Positions 1-6,286 of a stretch of 6,286 nt of DNA are shown here, in pieces. The DNA lies in assembly GCA_021204285.1 (NCBI GenBank), contig JAJPZP010000144.1, positions 1-6,286 on the forward strand, in the 5' to 3' direction. Positions within the stretch are counted from its first letter, which is position 1; each line of letters opens with the position of its first letter. This DNA is from Lachnospiraceae bacterium (GTDB taxonomy: Bacteria; Bacillota; Clostridia; Lachnospirales; Lachnospiraceae). Position numbers and translations under genes: made by a program. Under the pieces are notes generated by a model, which saw only the letters and a list, made by a program, of their open reading frames with translations, was not told where the DNA came from and did no database searches.

Positions 1-1574
1 TCCGTCTTATAGTCCAGCGCCGAGAAGGAATCGTCAAAGATCAGGATCTCCGGCTTCCTGGCGATGGCTCTCGCGATCGAAAGGCGCTGCTTCTGGCCGC
101 CCGATACATTGGAGCCGCTCTGGGAAATATGCCCTTTCAGCCCTCCGTCCATCGCACGGACGAAGTCAGAAGCCTGGGCGATATCCAGCGCGTTCTCCAC
201 ATCGGCCTGCGTCTTTTTCTGCCCGCTCTTTCCGAAGCTGACATTCCCCTCCACCGTATCGGCGAACAGCGTCGCCTTCTGCGGGATATAGCCGATCTTA
301 TTGTAAAGTGTCTCAAAGCTGTAGGTCCGGACGTCTTTCCCGTCCAACAGGACAGTGCCCGACGTGACATCATAAAGTCTCGCGGCGAGTCCGGCCAGCG
401 TCGATTTTCCTGAGCCGGTCGCACCGATGAACGCGACGGTTTCACCCTTCTTCGCGGTAAACGAGATATGCTTCAGGCAGTCCTCGGAAGCGTCGGGATA
501 GTGGAACGATACATCCCTGAACTCAATGCTCCCGCTCTCCTCCGATGCGGTTTCCGTGCCTTCCTTCACCGAGATGTCCGCGTCGATCACTTCATTGATA
601 CGGCCTGCGGACACCTGCGCACGGGGCAGCAGCATGAAGATCATCAGCAGCATCACGAAGGACATGATCACATACAGGGCATAGGAGCTGAAGGAGACAA
701 CCTCCCCGAGCATCACCGAGCGGGCGGAAACGGACGCCGCGATCGCCTCTGTCGTACCACCCAGTGGGATCTCAATTGCGTTGATCAGCCTGGCTCCCAC
801 AAAGTAAATACCAACGCTCACACAGCTCTGGACGAACATCATGATCGGCGAGAGGAAAGCCATCCCCCGCCCGGTAAAGAGCTGTGTCCGCATCAGGTTA
901 TTATTTGCTGTCTCGAACTTATCCTCCTGATATTGCTCCGCGTTGAACGCACGGACCACCCGGATGCCGTTCAGGTTTTCGCCTGTGATCCGGTTCACAT
1001 CGTCGATCTGCCGCTGAACGATGCGGAACTTCGGGATCATGATGGCCAGTAAGATAACCATCGCACTCACGATGATGACAACAGCGGCCGCCACAACTGC
1101 GGACAACTGCCAGCTCTTCCCAACAATCTTGATGATCGCCCAGATCGCCATGATCGGCGCGCGCAGCATCATCTGCAGGCCCATGGCGATGATCAGCTGG
1201 ATCTGCGTGATGTCATTCGTAGTACGGGTGATGAGACTGGCGGTAGAGAACTTTTTAATCTCCCCGCTGCCCATCGCCGCGACCTTGTTGAACACCTTCG
1301 CGCGGACATCAAAGGAAAAATCCGACGCGATCATGGCCGCAAAATAACCGACTATCACCGTCAGAACAGTGCTGCACAGGGCGCAGCCGAGCATCTTCCC
1401 GCCCGCCGCATAGTACTGTGAAAGCTCCGTGACCTCGCTGCTGATCAGCACCATAATTTCCGCCGTGTAATCCGGCAGGCGCAAATCAAAATATACCTGA
1501 CCGCAGACAAGCAGCAGACACAGAAGCGCCAGCCACCGGTCCTTGGTCTTCATGTTCCGGAAAATATGAAGCAT
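1..1574 (-). CDS. ABC exporter half-transporter (permease fused to ATPase), degenerate-site type; C-terminus beyond the window
   Basis: Membrane exporter subunit with an N-terminal six-helix domain and a C-terminal ATPase. It reads open for 524 codons from ATG at 1574 to the left edge, with no frameshift. AGGAGG (1582-1587) lies 7 bases upstream and fixes the start. Hydrophobic stretches lie near residues 13-34, 61-83, 137-157, 158-182, 243-262 and 295-318. The ATPase shows Walker A GATGSGKS (384-391), Q-loop Gln432, signature SGGQKQR (491-497) and Walker B ending Asp514. The next residue is Asp515, where the catalytic Glu is expected. In heterodimeric exporters of the TM287/288 or BmrCD kind this marks the degenerate half, so a partner with the canonical Glu probably lies just beyond the left edge. 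The D-loop SALD is present; the H-loop is cut off. The substrate cannot be read from sequence; drug, peptide or lipid export are all possible. The exporter assignment is firm and the heterodimer is inferred. Confidence 0.93.
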   Translation of the reverse strand, partial: MLHIFRNMKTKDRWLALLCLLLVCGQVYFDLRLPDYTAEIMVLISSEVTELSQYYAAGGKMLGCALCSTVLTVIVGYFAAMIASDFSFDVRAKVFNKVAAMGSGEIKKFSTASLITRTTNDITQIQLIIAMGLQMMLRAPIMAIWAIIKIVGKSWQLSAVVAAAVVIIVSAMVILLAIMIPKFRIVQRQIDDVNRITGENLNGIRVVRAFNAEQYQEDKFETANNNLMRTQLFTGRGMAFLSPIMMFVQSCVSVGIYFVGARLINAIEIPLGGTTEAIAASVSARSVMLGEVVSFSSYALYVIMSFVMLLMIFMLLPRAQVSAGRINEVIDADISVKEGTETASEESGSIEFRDVSFHYPDASEDCLKHISFTAKKGETVAFIGATGSGKSTLAGLAARLYDVTSGTVLLDGKDVRTYSFETLYNKIGYIPQKATLFADTVEGNVSFGKSGQKKTQADVENALDIAQASDFVRAMDGGLKGHISQSGSNVSGGQKQRLSIARAIARKPEILIFDDSFSALDYKT

Positions 1575-1600
1575 GTCAAAACCTCCTACTGCTTTTATAT

Positions 1601-1614
1601 GCAACATTTGTTGC
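1601..1614. promoter_or_regulatory. Palindromic operator 1, GCAACA-TT-TGTTGC
   Basis: Perfect 6-base arms around a 2-base centre. It sits just downstream of the predicted start point of the minus-strand exporter promoter, a position where a bound protein would block transcription. The 16 bases CAACATTTGTTGCATT (1602-1617) recur exactly at 1665-1680. The binding protein is inferred to be a TetR-type regulator from the neighbouring remnant. Confidence 0.75.
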
Positions 1615-1624
1615 ATTGCATGGT

Positions 1625-1653
1625 ATGTTATCACGATCTCTCGGAATTATCAA
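1625..1653 (-). promoter_or_regulatory. Sigma-A type promoter for the left ABC exporter
   Basis: On the minus strand, TTGATA (1648-1653) and TAACAT (1625-1630) are separated by exactly 17 bases. TG one base before the -10 gives an extended -10 (TG-A-TAACAT). Transcription would start near 1618, about 44 bases before the ATG at 1574. Operator 2 abuts the -35 from upstream and operator 1 lies just past the start point. The -10 matches consensus at only four of six positions, so the extended element matters to this call. Confidence 0.55.
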
Positions 1654-2134: not shown

Positions 2135-3154
2135 TCAAAACGTTTCCGAATCTTTGGAAAAGGCCTGACGCAGGATATTCTCCAGCTGCTGATCAAATAT
2201 ATTCAAAGACTCCTCTTTTCCCTTTTGGGAATATAGTCCACCGTCCTCATCAAAGCTGACAAGGCAGGCATCGCCTGAAATCACACCGTCAATGTAGCGA
2301 ATATCCTGAACCATATCCAGAGGCAGAGTCTGAAAATCCTGTTCGGTATGAAAGCCCGTGATTGCGCTGTATACCCGATCACGTGTAGCCTGAGAGCAGG
2401 ACACGTCGGGGAGAACCGCGGTGAAAACCGGATGCAGTTGTTCCGTGCTGTAGAACAGATCCCCGCCAACAATGCTATCCGCGTCTTTTTCCTCATATAC
2501 ATAGAATACAGAATAGAAAAGCTGTCTTTTTCGCAGCCGGCTGTACACGTCTCCGGCATTTTCATCGTAGCGGACGGCCAGCATCAGGTGCTTAACATCC
2601 GTCATGCAATCCAGAAAGGCAGAGGTGAGATCAGAGGGTTCACAGAACAGGATGAACGCACAGTCCGTATGTCTTCGCATCAGAGGCAGAACCTCCTGCA
2701 ACAATCCATGCGCATGCAGCATCCAGGTGTATATACCGAGCTTTTTCCCCTGTGTGAGGACGGCATCATAGCATTCCGGCTCTTTTATAATTTTTTCCAT
2801 ATCAACATCCATAGAAATCGTCCATGGAATATTGAAGCCATCTGCAGCTTCTTTTTTCCGGATCTTCTCCGCCCCCTCGGTGCAGCTGTTATAGCCCAGG
2901 TTCATTCCGAACTGCAGGATGCGATCCGTCTCAACATTGGCGACAGTGTCCTTTATAATATCATAGTAAGCGCTATTTTCATTCTTCAGCATCGCTTCCG
3001 CAACCGTAAAAAAGGAGCGCTGAAAGCGTCCCTCTGAGGAGTTCAGAGCCATGTCAACAAGGTTTCGGATGCTGCGCTCCGGAGAGTCCTTTAAATCCTT
3101 CAGAGTCCTCCTGACAATGGTTTCGATTAAAATGCGGGACATGCTGTCTGCCAT
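2135..3154 (-). CDS. Conserved-looking cytosolic protein of unknown function, 339 residues
   Basis: I do not recognise a characterised family, though I recall similar unnamed proteins from Lachnospiraceae. An open frame extends to TTG at 3178, but AAGGAAG (3163-3169) sits 8 bases before ATG at 3154, so that start is preferred. There is no signal peptide or membrane segment. Residues 1-80 look helical. The distinctive stretch FGMNLGYNSCTEGAEKIR spans 82-99. Then strand-like segments alternate with helices: NIPWTISMDVD (108-118), IYTWMLHA (141-148), CAFILFCEP (165-173), VKHLMLAVRYDE (187-198) and LFYSVFYVYEE (212-222). This suggests an alpha/beta, possibly barrel-like, domain. The pattern recalls the radical-SAM barrel, but no CxxxCxxC cluster motif exists among its seven cysteines, so that enzyme activity is not supported. 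It has its own promoter and appears monocistronic. Its base composition looks more AT-rich than the flanking exporter genes. It is a real gene; its function is unknown. Confidence 0.85.
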   Translation of the reverse strand: MADSMSRILIETIVRRTLKDLKDSPERSIRNLVDMALNSSEGRFQRSFFTVAEAMLKNENSAYYDIIKDTVANVETDRILQFGMNLGYNSCTEGAEKIRKKEAADGFNIPWTISMDVDMEKIIKEPECYDAVLTQGKKLGIYTWMLHAHGLLQEVLPLMRRHTDCAFILFCEPSDLTSAFLDCMTDVKHLMLAVRYDENAGDVYSRLRKRQLFYSVFYVYEEKDADSIVGGDLFYSTEQLHPVFTAVLPDVSCSQATRDRVYSAITGFHTEQDFQTLPLDMVQDIRYIDGVISGDACLVSFDEDGGLYSQKGKEESLNIFDQQLENILRQAFSKDSETF

Positions 3155-3162
3155 CCACGCCA

Positions 3163-3169
3163 CTTCCTT
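3163..3169 (-). promoter_or_regulatory. Ribosome binding site AAGGAAG deciding the start at 3154
   Basis: On the minus strand this lies 8 bases before ATG at 3154. It falls inside the longer open frame from TTG 3178, which itself has no suitable upstream site. This supports the shorter 339-residue protein. Confidence 0.7.
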
Positions 3170-3199
3170 TCTCTGCAAAACAATTCCTTATTTAATGTT

Positions 3200-3228: not shown

Positions 3229-3359
3229 GGTCACATTTTCGCCTGTTTGTCCAAAAGTGTTACATTTTCAGTTTTATGCCGAAATTCTTACCAAACGCTG
3301 ACAAATGACCAGTGAAGTCCGGGATTTCCGCCATTATAATTCACAGATTTTTCACAAAG

Positions 3360-3392
3360 CTGTTAGCACTCGATGCTTGACAGTGCTAACAG
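3360..3392. promoter_or_regulatory. CIRCE-like inverted repeat (HrcA-type operator) overlapping the marR promoter
   Basis: Arms CTGTTAGCACT (3360-3370) and AGTGCTAACAG (3382-3392) are perfectly complementary over 11 bases. Read as the heat-shock operator, it is TTAGCACTC (3363-3371), nine bases, then CAGTGCTAA (3381-3389): 17 of 18 conserved CIRCE positions, with the exact N9 spacing. CIRCE is the binding site of the HrcA repressor, usually in front of groESL and dnaK operons. Here it precedes a MarR regulator and exporters, and its right arm overlaps the -35 box. It may instead be the operator of the MarR protein itself. That the dyad is a functional operator is likely; which protein binds it is open. 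Confidence 0.8.
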
Positions 3393-3405
3393 TCCGTGCT
3401 ATAGT
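3377..3405 (+). promoter_or_regulatory. Strong sigma-A type promoter for the marR-ABC-ABC operon
   Basis: A consensus TTGACA (3377-3382), a 17-base spacer and TATAGT (3400-3405), five of six to consensus. Transcription should begin near 3412, leaving a leader of under 30 bases before the marR start. The inverted repeat at 3360-3392 covers the -35, so a bound repressor would exclude RNA polymerase. The half-site GTGCTA recurs at 3396-3401, running into the -10. Confidence 0.82.
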
Positions 3406-3423: not shown

Positions 3424-3431
3424 GGAGGTGA
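3424..3431 (+). promoter_or_regulatory. Ribosome binding site GGAGGTGA deciding the marR start
   Basis: A perfect match to the 16S rRNA tail. The in-frame GTG at 3428 overlaps this site and so cannot be the start. ATG at 3440 lies 8 bases after it and GTG at 3437 lies 5 bases after; the ATG is preferred. Confidence 0.75.
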
Positions 3432-3439
3432 AACTCGTG

Positions 3440-3865
3440 ATGCAGGATCACGGCAGGGACTGCGCCGCTCTGATCAAGCATATTGATACCAAGATGACAA
3501 AACAGGCGAACGAACGCTTCGATATGTACGGCGTTACCTTCCGGCAGGTGCGTCTGCTGATGCTTCTTTTGCAGAAGGGGTCTGAGGCCGTACCATTAAA
3601 ATTTCTGGAAAAGAATTTTGAAGTTGCTCAATCCACAGCTTCCGGTCTCGTTGTCCGTCTGGAGAAGAAGGGGCTGGTGCAGGGTTATGTCCCCGCTGAC
3701 GATAAACGGCAGAAGGTTGTCCGGCTCACAGAAAAAGGGAAGGAACTTTGTATCTCGATCGAAGAGGATATGCGAGAAGGCGAGAGAGTCCTGCTGCAGA
3801 GTCTGGACGAGAAAGAACGGATGCAGTTTTACAGTCTGCTCAGAAAAGTAAATGATTCGATGTAA
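3440..3865 (+). CDS. MarR-family transcriptional regulator
   Basis: A 141-residue winged-helix DNA-binding protein, the normal length for the MarR family, acting as a dimer in the cytoplasm. The N-terminal helix region is followed by VTFRQVRLLMLLLQ, typical of the helix leading into the DNA-binding domain. The recognition helix lies in AQSTASGLVVRLEKKGLV. The wing follows with DDKRQKVVRLTEKG, the family's hallmark D-x-R-x(3)-V-x-L-T-x(2)-G pattern. The C-terminal helices would complete the dimer interface. It is the first gene of an operon with two ABC exporter halves, 99 bases before the next start, an arrangement in which MarR proteins usually repress their own operon until a ligand, often the exported toxic compound, releases them. 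That role is inferred from family and position; the ligand is unknown. The dyad over the -35 is the obvious candidate operator, although it resembles CIRCE more than a short-spaced MarR site. Confidence 0.93.
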   Translation: MQDHGRDCAALIKHIDTKMTKQANERFDMYGVTFRQVRLLMLLLQKGSEAVPLKFLEKNFEVAQSTASGLVVRLEKKGLVQGYVPADDKRQKVVRLTEKGKELCISIEEDMREGERVLLQSLDEKERMQFYSLLRKVNDSM

Positions 3866-3870
3866 CGAAT

Positions 3871-3890
3871 GCCCGGTTTCCTGTTCGGGC
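3871..3890 (+). terminator. Weak hairpin after marR, possible attenuator
   Basis: GCCCG (3871-3875) and CGGGC (3886-3890) can form a short GC stem with a 10-base loop, six bases after the marR stop codon, followed by GTTAATTT. The stem is short and the T-tract poor, so a full terminator is unlikely. It could give partial termination or protect the marR message end, lowering exporter expression relative to marR. No new promoter was recognised before the next gene. Confidence 0.35.
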
Positions 3891-3964
3891 GTTAATTTAA
3901 GGCAAATCAAACGCATGCTATTAAACATATGCTTTTAAAATGCAGAAAGGAAGGATTACTTACT

Positions 3965-5701
3965 ATGTTAAAAACATTACTGAAAAGTGTGCGGCAATAT
4001 AAAAAAGAATCCATATTGGCGCCGATTTTTGTGGCGATCGAAGTGGTATTTGAATGTCTGCTGCCGCTGATCATGGCGAGCCTGATCGACCAGATGACAG
4101 GCGAGGCGTTCGGGCCGATCCTGCGCCTGGCCGTCATCCTGGTTGTCATGGCGCTGCTCTCGCTGCTCTTCGGCGTACTGTCCGGCGCGATGGCCTCCAC
4201 CGCGTCCTGCGGCTTCGCCAAAAATCTGCGGGAAGACCTGTTTTTCAAAATCCAGGATTTCTCCTTTGCGGATATTGACTATTTCTCGACGTCCTCTCTG
4301 GTGACGAGGATGACGACGGATGTGACGAACATCCAGAACGCGTATCAGATGATCATCCGTATCGTGGTCCGCACGCCGCTGATGCTTATCTTTTCCCTGG
4401 TGATGTGCCTCACGATCAACGTCCGGATGTCGTTCATCTTCCTCGCGCTGCTTCCGATCCTGGGCGTCGTTCTTTTTGGAATTTCGATGCACGTTCATCC
4501 GATTTTCAAAAAGATTTTCAAGAAGTACGACGCGCTCAACAATTCCGTGCAGGAAAATGTCGCCGGGATCCGCGTGGTAAAATCCTTTGTACGGGAAGAT
4601 TATGAGAAGGAAAAGTTCGACAAAGCGGCGCGGGAAGTCTGTGACGACTTTACGAGAGTAGAGAAAATCCTTGCCCTCAACCGGCCCTTCATGATGTTCT
4701 GTATTTATGCCGCCTTCATGCTGATCAGCTTTTTCGGAGCGAACATCATCATCAATACGGCGGGCTCGAGTCTCACGACCGGACAGCTTTCCTCGCTGAT
4801 CAGCTACGGTATCCAGATCCTGTCCTCCATGATGATGCTCTCCATGGTGTTCGTCATGGTCAGTATGGCGATGGAATCCGGGAACCGTGTCGCGGAGGTG
4901 CTCACCTGGGGCAGCTCACTCGAGTCGCCGGAGAACGGGCTGACGGAAGTGCCGGACGGGAGCATCGATTTCGACCATGTCTCCTTCCGCTATCAGAAGG
5001 ACAGCAAAAAAGCAGCCCTGTCCGATATCAGCCTGAACATCAAATCCGGGCAGACGATAGGCATCATGGGAGGCACCGGCTCGTCCAAGACGACGCTGAT
5101 CCAGCTCATCTCACGTCTCTATGACGTCAGCGAGGGCAGCGTGAAGGTCGGCGGGCACGACGTCCGGGAATACGATCTCGAGACGCTGCGTGACGCGGTC
5201 TCTGTCGTCCTGCAGAAAAACGTGCTGTTTTCCGGTACAATTAAGGAAAATCTGCGCTGGGGCAATAAGGAAGCTACCGATGAGGAGCTGGTGGAAGCCT
5301 GCAGGGCCGCGCAGGCGGAGGAATTCATCGAACAGCTGCCCGACCGCTATGACACACGTATCGAGCGCGGCGGCACCAACGTCTCCGGCGGGCAGAAGCA
5401 GCGGCTCTGCATTGCGCGGGCGCTGCTGAAGAAACCGAAAATCCTGATCCTCGACGACTCCACGTCCGCCGTCGACACGAAGACGGACGCCCTGATCCGC
5501 CGGGCGTTCCAGAATGAGATCCCGGATACGACAAAGATTATCATCGCGCAGCGGGTCTCCTCCGTGCAGGATGCAGATATGATTCTCGTGCTGGACGACG
5601 GGAAGATCGCGGAGCAGGGAACCCATGAGGAGCTGCTGGCTCTGAATGGCATCTATAAAGAAGCGTATGAGACGCAGACAAAGAGTAAGGAGGCGGTCTG
5701 A
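3965..5701 (+). CDS. ABC exporter half-transporter, degenerate-site (TM287-like) subunit
   Basis: Complete 578-residue membrane exporter subunit, typical half-transporter length. ATG at 3965 is chosen over the in-frame ATG at 3929 because AGGAAGG lies 10 bases before it and the protein then starts MLKTLLKSVRQYKKE, usual for this family. Six membrane segments fall near residues 17-40, 52-76, 130-150, 155-175, 243-265 and 282-303. The ATPase shows Walker A GGTGSSKT (369-376, Ser374 replacing the usual third Gly), Q-loop Gln417, signature SGGQKQR (474-480), Walker B ILILD ending Asp497, then Asp498 instead of catalytic Glu, and Gln529 (IIIAQRV) instead of the switch His. These three changes mark a catalytically degenerate site, so the protein should work only as a heterodimer with the next gene product, which starts one base after this stop codon. 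Substrate unknown; multidrug or toxic metabolite export under the upstream MarR protein is likely. Confidence 0.95.
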   Translation: MLKTLLKSVRQYKKESILAPIFVAIEVVFECLLPLIMASLIDQMTGEAFGPILRLAVILVVMALLSLLFGVLSGAMASTASCGFAKNLREDLFFKIQDFSFADIDYFSTSSLVTRMTTDVTNIQNAYQMIIRIVVRTPLMLIFSLVMCLTINVRMSFIFLALLPILGVVLFGISMHVHPIFKKIFKKYDALNNSVQENVAGIRVVKSFVREDYEKEKFDKAAREVCDDFTRVEKILALNRPFMMFCIYAAFMLISFFGANIIINTAGSSLTTGQLSSLISYGIQILSSMMMLSMVFVMVSMAMESGNRVAEVLTWGSSLESPENGLTEVPDGSIDFDHVSFRYQKDSKKAALSDISLNIKSGQTIGIMGGTGSSKTTLIQLISRLYDVSEGSVKVGGHDVREYDLETLRDAVSVVLQKNVLFSGTIKENLRWGNKEATDEELVEACRAAQAEEFIEQLPDRYDTRIERGGTNVSGGQKQRLCIARALLKKPKILILDDSTSAVDTKTDALIRRAFQNEIPDTTKIIIAQRVSSVQDADMILVLDDGKIAEQGTHEELLALNGIYKEAYETQTKSKEAV

Positions 5702-5702
5702 A

Positions 5703-6286
5703 ATGAGAGACAATCAATCCAGAAAACCGGGCAGTTTCAGCCGGCTGATTAAATATTTGTTTCACTACTATCCGGTGCAGCTGGTCGTCGTGATGGTCTG
5801 CATTGTGGTCAGCGCCGTCGCATCGGTTATATCCACCGCGTTCCTGCAGCGGCTGATCGACGAGTGCATCACACCGGGCATCACAAGCGGCCTGGCGGCG
5901 GTCTGGGATCAGCTGGTTTCCATCCTGATGATCATGGGAACCATCTATGTGCTGGGCGTCATGTCATCCTTTATTTATACGAGAATCATGGCGGGCGTCA
6001 CGCAGGGTACGCTGATGCACCTGCGTGAGGATATGTTTGACAAAATGGAGACGCTGCCGATAAAATATTTCGACACGCATGCGCACGTCGATATCATGAG
6101 TACCTACACGAATGATACGGACGCGCTGCGGCAGATGCTGGGGCAGAGCCTCCCGATGATCTTCCAGTCCGGCCTGACAATAATCGTGATTGTCGTCATG
6201 ATGCTGTACTACAGCCTCTGGCTGCCGCTGGTCGTGTTCGCCTTCGCCATCCTGATGCTGGTTATCACAAGAAGTTTCGGCGGCCG
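5703..6286 (+). CDS. ABC exporter half-transporter, likely catalytic partner subunit (N-terminal part only)
   Basis: Begins at ATG 5703, one base after the previous stop, with AAGGAGG (5687-5693) 9 bases upstream inside the preceding gene, so the two are translationally linked. It remains open for 194 codons to the right edge. The visible part is the start of an exporter membrane domain: a basic N-terminus (MRDNQSRKPGSFSRLIKYL), a first membrane helix near residues 25-47, a second near 73-95, the cytoplasmic loop with LREDMFDKMETLPIKYFD, then THAHVDIMSTYTNDTDALRQ, the usual coupling region, and a further hydrophobic pair near 155-190. The ATPase is outside the window. By family rule the partner of a degenerate half carries the canonical Walker B Glu and switch His; this is predicted, not seen. 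Confidence 0.92.
   Translation, partial: MRDNQSRKPGSFSRLIKYLFHYYPVQLVVVMVCIVVSAVASVISTAFLQRLIDECITPGITSGLAAVWDQLVSILMIMGTIYVLGVMSSFIYTRIMAGVTQGTLMHLREDMFDKMETLPIKYFDTHAHVDIMSTYTNDTDALRQMLGQSLPMIFQSGLTIIVIVVMMLYYSLWLPLVVFAFAILMLVITRSFGG

Follow-up and report, generated by a model that had tools for sequence, protein, structure and literature searches.

A chaperone-type CIRCE operator predicted on the promoter of a MarR–ABC exporter operon in a Lachnospiraceae bacterium

Introduction

CIRCE elements, with the consensus TTAGCACTC-N9-GAGTGCTAA, are bound by the heat-shock repressor HrcA, and a section of one report states that this repression is lifted once GroESL becomes unavailable (PMC3842655). 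The range of genes under HrcA control is usually narrow. A link between HrcA and transporters is not unheard of at the RNA level, since the same section describes altered transcripts of ABC and multidrug transporters—as a direct or an indirect effect—in a Lactobacillus plantarum hrcA mutant (PMC3842655). Titles and abstract openings in the open-access literature revealed no CIRCE-controlled MarR or efflux operon among the matches listed. Exporter operons headed by a MarR-family gene are represented by SatR-SatAB of Streptococcus suis, in which, according to part of the published account, the regulator gene shares an operon with two ABC exporter genes and acts directly on them, as does a second regulator, CiaR (PMC9241815).

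Here, we analyse a 6,286-nt stretch of Lachnospiraceae DNA (the window), in which the initial annotation had placed a CIRCE-like operator in front of a MarR–ABC exporter operon. A promoter of this kind on an exporter operon would let folding stress raise either export capacity or its regulator.

Results

A CIRCE-type operator overlaps a near-consensus promoter

The region upstream of marR contains the following elements:

3340..3356, plus strand: direct repeat TTCACA-N5-TTCACA with an 11-bp period; its end lies 20 nt upstream of the -35, and it is common in hsp20 promoters of the family
3360..3392, no strand assigned: perfect inverted repeat holding the operator, with arms of 11 nt each (3360-3370 and 3382-3392)
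3363..3389, plus strand: CIRCE-type operator and predicted HrcA site, from the consensus match and the hsp20/clpB form found across the family
3377..3382, plus strand: -35 element TTGACA, overlapping the right CIRCE arm
3397..3405, plus strand: extended -10 element TGCTATAGT, comprising TATAGT (3400-3405) with TG before the -10

The operator reads TTAGCACTC-GATGCTTGA-CAGTGCTAA. Its left arm (3363-3371) matches the consensus at 9/9 positions and its right arm (3381-3389) at 8/9, and the spacer (3372-3380) is exactly 9 nt long, which confirms the 17 of 18 conserved positions and the exact spacing claimed at the outset. The promoter, TTGACA and TATAGT separated by 17 nt, agrees with the consensus in 11 of 12 bases, and the right arm lies over TTGACA, again as first described. 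The 11-base perfect dyad of the initial annotation needs qualification: its arms are real in this genome, but the CTG/CAG extension is peculiar to it, and what orthologues share is GCACTC and CTTGACAGTGCTAACA.

Dinucleotide shuffling of the window (200 copies) returned no CIRCE match at ≤3 mismatches. These shuffles, together with the absence of reversed-control sites from the whole assembly, rule out a chance match. No Rfam family matched in the window at gathering thresholds.

The site resembles chaperone CIRCE elements of the genome, genus and family

Searching the assembly (2.19 Mb, 88.5% complete) at ≤3 mismatches returned five CIRCE sites—in front of htpG, groES-groEL, hrcA-grpE, lon and marR—and none for the reversed control. 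Those of htpG, groES and hrcA are perfect, the lon site has two mismatches and the marR site one; the proposed comparison with the groESL and dnaK-operon (hrcA-grpE) sites thus leaves a single base of difference. Upstream of two hsp20 genes of this genome (L156 and L165) lie weaker versions of the site, carrying 4 and 5 mismatches, respectively. The clpB promoter of this genome and the marR promoter of genome G016 fall beyond contig ends and stand outside these counts. HrcA itself is encoded in the same genome (TIGR00331, 316 bits against a cut-off of 197.2; PF01628).

Across 17 genomes of the genus, the same threshold gave 98 sites (reversed control, 16), 86 of which precede chaperone, protease or hrcA genes. 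By class, assigned by blastp of the downstream ORFs against reference proteins and otherwise by reading, they comprise htpG (16), groES (22), hrcA (17), lon (9), hsp20 (11), clpB (11), marR (5) and other genes (7). The last group consists of a perfect site at a CBASS cyclase gene, a perfect site before a remnant of groEL with MarR and MATE genes behind it, a one-mismatch site at a contig edge and four weak sites. We took the four weak ones (2-3 mismatches, near other genes in G002 and G005) as chance, given the 16 hits of the reversed control.

Two of these cases deserve description in their own right. A perfect CIRCE immediately precedes the gene for a CBASS cGAMP synthase (NF041078, 238 bits; L054, 1501-1527, and L228, G008:C10); through it, antiphage defence would come under the control of the heat-shock repressor. 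At L120, 888-1534 (G005:C11), a perfect CIRCE is followed by a short groEL remnant, a MarR gene and a MATE gene, and at L226 (G015:C6) groES-groEL occupy the corresponding place before the same MarR gene. G005 holds a second MarR–efflux pair behind CIRCE, an arrangement that apparently came about by loss of the chaperonin genes.

The marR site is like the other CIRCE sites of the organism, and its one mismatch recurs in the hsp20/clpB form of sister species, where the variant CAGTGCTAA over TTGACA also precedes hsp20 and clpB. In a family-wide set of 299 genomes, each from a different genus, 177 contain TAGCACTC-N5-TTGACAGTGCTAA exactly, and none contains the reversed control. The 30 loci fetched hold 31 such sites, 21 of them at hsp20, 7 at clpB and 2 at groES, with 1 too short to read. 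Given this distribution, the window site is the common hsp20/clpB operator–promoter of the family in an unusual place; judged by its sequence, its single mismatch is the ordinary hsp20/clpB form, in which TTGACA runs into the right arm. Not every hsp20 gene is preceded by CIRCE: one in G004 lacks any CIRCE-like site within the stretch examined (best, 7 mismatches).

HrcA was matched in 285 of the 299 family genomes; five of the 14 without a match still hold the site form, and all 14 are drafts of 80-400 contigs. Bacillus subtilis has CtsR, the alternative heat-shock regulator considered here. A search for CtsR gave no match in the 17 genus genomes, and its control also missed B. subtilis.

Within the marR-bearing clade, most hsp20/clpB right arms have drifted alike to TTGACTTGGCTAA (L142, L143, L144, L154, L158, L165, L169, L170, L173, L174 and L175; variants at L149, L156, L159 and L163). 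The groES, hrcA and htpG sites read there are perfect.

The operator is kept before orthologous marR genes

MarR orthologues with 78-90% identity are encoded in five other genomes of the genus. With the window included, CIRCE is kept in all five orthologues whose upstream DNA could be read, so that the operator is conserved at the marR promoters that the initial annotation had suggested comparing. The sixth orthologue, in G016, is interrupted by the end of its contig. Two genome pairs are nearly identical in this region, which reduces the sample to about three independent lineages. Operon-bearing genomes look like one clade, given that their HrcA proteins are 97-99% identical to that of the window genome, as opposed to 83-87% in other genus genomes with an hrcA site read. 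In G016, a one-mismatch CIRCE over TTGACA (L083, 18-44; G016:C52) points off the end of a contig; it is not linkable to marR, and might be the missing promoter.

The site has one mismatch in the window and two or three in the other orthologues. In the alignment of five, the left-arm GCACTC and CTTGACAGTGCTAACA are invariant and the DNA further upstream is poorly conserved. This pattern bears on whether the site could be a relic, that is, a captured chaperone promoter used for its strength alone, with HrcA control being of no consequence. The mismatches themselves would fit such a relic, as would the weakened right arms at hsp20/clpB sites of the same clade. However, the left-arm GCACTC, for which we know of no promoter role, has stayed invariant in five orthologues with poor conservation further upstream, and we consider a relic very improbable.

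A comparison set of 21 MarR homologues (30-44% identity), which covered other genera of the family, the wider order and the more distant species within the genus, yielded no CIRCE-like site upstream of marR (best, 6-9 mismatches; at L292 only 83 nt were readable). G013 encodes, besides its orthologue, a paralogue that is 56% identical and heads its own two-gene exporter operon, likewise with no CIRCE upstream. This genome is a natural experiment, with one marR–exporter operon carrying CIRCE and one paralogous operon lacking it.

Traces of a possible hsp20/clpB origin

Upstream DNA of the window shares its longest match, 21 nt, with an hsp20 promoter of G001, a length compared with at most 14 nt among 500 Markov-resampled copies. 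Over 27 bases that include the spacer, the marR sites of G001 and G013 match the most frequent hsp20/clpB site of the genus at 26. The spacers of four orthologues read ACCTC or GCCTC, as do 15 of 35 hsp20/clpB spacers of the genus and 8 of 31 family-site spacers (where ACCTA, also found in 8, is commonest).

We counted the TTCACA repeat over those genus promoters that carry CIRCE and were aligned. At ≤1 mismatch and some 22 nt before CIRCE, it occurs in 18/20 hsp20 (all 18 exact), 1/16 clpB and 1/22 groES promoters, and in 0/42 promoters of hrcA, htpG and lon (5/17 hrcA promoters have it at two mismatches). The marR promoter of the window carries it exactly and at the same distance as in hsp20 promoters; among orthologues, it has two mismatches in G010/G011 and is absent from G001/G013. 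Exact copies are found at five places in this genome. In the family, the repeat accompanies TAGCACTC in 93 of 299 genomes, and the 30 loci read comprise 25 hsp20 and 4 clpB genes and 1 unreadable case. Examples of hsp20 promoters with the repeat upstream of TAGCACTC are L066 and L253-L282. Its 11-bp period resembles the boxes of OmpR-type response regulators, and by this analogy hsp20 may have a second regulator.

As proof of an hsp20 origin, the repeat is weakened by two of the 21 CIRCE-less marR promoters (L016 and L285), which carry it exactly; it could therefore be ancestral to marR. Taking these observations together, we infer that a chaperone promoter was captured by the marR–exporter operon in the ancestor of a small clade.

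A predicted MarR operator lies between marR and the exporter genes

Downstream of the promoter, the operon comprises:

3437..3865, plus strand: marR, a MarR-family regulator gene (PF12802 and PF01047 over cut-off)
3868..3893, plus strand: hairpin with a 9-bp stem and an 8-nt loop, followed by TTAATTT, in a region alike in six orthologues
3909..3922, plus strand: predicted MarR operator AAACGCATGCTATT, 0 mismatches, between marR and the exporter genes
3965..5701, plus strand: exporter subunit A, ABC membrane and ATPase domains (PF00664, PF00005)
5703..6284, plus strand: exporter subunit B (PF00664), cut by the window end

For marR, a GTG start at 3437 is likelier than the listed ORF start at 3428, on visual inspection of the ribosome-binding site and comparison with the orthologues. 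The hairpin is a possible weak terminator or attenuator; its stability does not exceed that of shuffles (z -0.56). Read by eye, the Walker A of subunit A is the non-canonical GGTGSSKT and its catalytic E is replaced by D, and the orthologue of subunit B, complete in L231, has canonical ATP-site motifs there. Compared with solved structures, subunit A scored 446 bits against 4q4j chain A, below eukaryotic ABCB proteins (up to 480); 4q4j and 3qf4 are its solved bacterial relatives. They belong to the TM287/288 type of heterodimeric exporter, the partner chain being annotated TM_0288.

Elsewhere in the window, a 347-aa ORF on the minus strand (2135-3178) diverges from marR and matches nothing in Pfam or NCBIfam at E 0.001. 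Repeated palindromes like ATGCAACATTTGTTGCAT (1597-1680) lie upstream of another ABC gene (3-1634, minus strand), and they adjoin what appears by eye to be a truncated regulator gene at about 1790-2030.

Many of the distant MarR homologues carry a gapless palindrome, AATAGCATGCTATT or AAACGCATGCTATT, upstream. At ≤2 mismatches within 200 nt upstream of marR, it was found in 10/21 of them, in nine of the ten directly before TTGA (-35-like), and in 0/5 marR promoters of the window's group; it is absent upstream of the G013 paralogue (L132) too. Within the window's CIRCE site, the best match to it has six mismatches. In the window's group, the palindrome recurs 47 nt after marR in 6/6 orthologues (≤2 mismatches, window included), against a background of four places in 271 kb of other loci, two of them being marR operons of the clade. 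From this place and recurrence, we deduce that the palindrome is probably the MarR operator.

A clean swap of the MarR operator for CIRCE at the promoter was considered, and is weakened by the CIRCE-less paralogue: as L132 also lacks the upstream palindrome, loss of the palindrome may predate CIRCE.

Is the dyad itself a MarR site?

MarR genes usually control their own promoters. The initial annotation had offered the alternative that this MarR protein evolved an operator resembling CIRCE, with possible cross-talk to HrcA. On this view, MarR would repress its own promoter through TAGCA/TGCTA half-sites flanking the -35, and HrcA would have no role or only cross-talk. Besides the self-control typical of such genes, this alternative could draw on the half-site TAGCA/TGCTA, which lies within the CIRCE arms and is shared with AATAGCATGCTATT of the distant homologues; on a presumed recognition helix closely similar between this MarR and its homologues; and on the G012 homologue (L016), which has a long dyad (12-nt arms, gap of 6) centred on its -35. 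Yet the palindrome of the homologues is gapless, whereas the half-sites at the CIRCE dyad are 15 nt apart, and a perfect copy of the palindrome stands downstream at 3909-3922. Within the dyad, the outer TAGCA is altered in G010/G011 (CTGGCACTC), but the inner CIRCE bases are invariant. In addition, the site that the G001/G013 versions match so closely precedes hsp20 and clpB genes, and the paralogous operon of G013 does without CIRCE. Because the homologues' palindrome is gapless and CACTC/AGTG—bases that belong to CIRCE only—are invariant in five orthologues, the look-alike is disfavoured, and we rate it as unlikely.

The same half-sites raise the question of a shared dyad, at which HrcA would repress by way of CIRCE while MarR used the outer half-sites, in direct cross-talk. 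Their position within the CIRCE arms is compatible with this, and in G001/G013 the left arm, AATAGCA, amounts to a full half of the MarR-type palindrome. The geometry described above speaks against joint use, as does the changed left half-site of G010/G011, and we give this arrangement little credence.

Discussion

We favour the reading that 3363-3389 is a chaperone-type CIRCE operator on the marR–exporter promoter, which HrcA likely represses, that the promoter was captured, and that MarR gates the exporter; we put its probability at roughly 0.73. The claim of a CIRCE operator before this operon has thus become well supported at the sequence level: the genome encodes HrcA and has its four other sites at genes of proteostasis, and the form is family-wide. 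The further claim, that efflux is thereby tied to folding stress, is partly supported. HrcA likely acts at the marR promoter, but its link to the exporter itself is less direct than first proposed owing to the predicted MarR operator and the hairpin in between, which the initial annotation had not foreseen.

Mechanistically, HrcA at 3363-3389 would block RNA polymerase at the -35 in unstressed cells. Once GroESL is occupied by damaged proteins, HrcA would become inactive and marR would be transcribed alongside htpG, groESL and hrcA-grpE. The share reaching the exporter genes would depend on how much transcription passes the hairpin and on MarR acting at 3909-3922, so HrcA would set transcript supply and MarR would gate the exporter. 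We would expect protein damage to turn on marR at the least. Because marR comes first in the operon, the effect of heat on the exporter could go two ways: higher expression, by read-through, or tighter repression, by more MarR, unless the MarR ligand is present. Against the favoured reading, the hairpin before the exporter genes may limit read-through.

A tentative extension, which uses all parts of the locus, is a two-input gate that arose by promoter capture, in which HrcA, sensing damage, would decide on transcription of the operon, and MarR, sensing its ligand, on passage into the exporter genes, which would be expressed only when both are sensed. If true, a multidrug-type exporter would join the heat-shock regulon. 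The favoured reading suggests a route by which regulons grow, namely promoter capture, with the local repressor keeping its own site.

Comparison with known systems

With the CIRCE/HrcA regulon, the locus shares the consensus and spacing, an encoded HrcA and an operator overlapping the promoter. It differs in that typical targets are chaperone operons, as opposed to a MarR regulator followed by an ABC exporter, and in that C replaces G in the part of its right arm shared with TTGACA. The likeness to Lachnospiraceae hsp20/clpB promoters extends to the CIRCE variant, the overlap with the -35, the extended -10 and, in this genome, the TTCACA repeat at the same distance; the downstream genes differ, and the right arms of this clade are mostly TTGACTTGGCTAA, whereas that of marR is not. 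Judged against the part of the SatR-SatAB account cited above, the gene order is of the same kind, marR followed by two ABC half-exporters. The second input is a two-component regulator there and a predicted heat-shock repressor here, where drug export is likewise a prediction. Exporters of the heterodimeric TM287/288 type, finally, resemble the encoded pair in consisting of two half-transporters, one with a degenerate ATP site, with activity here predicted from the sequence.
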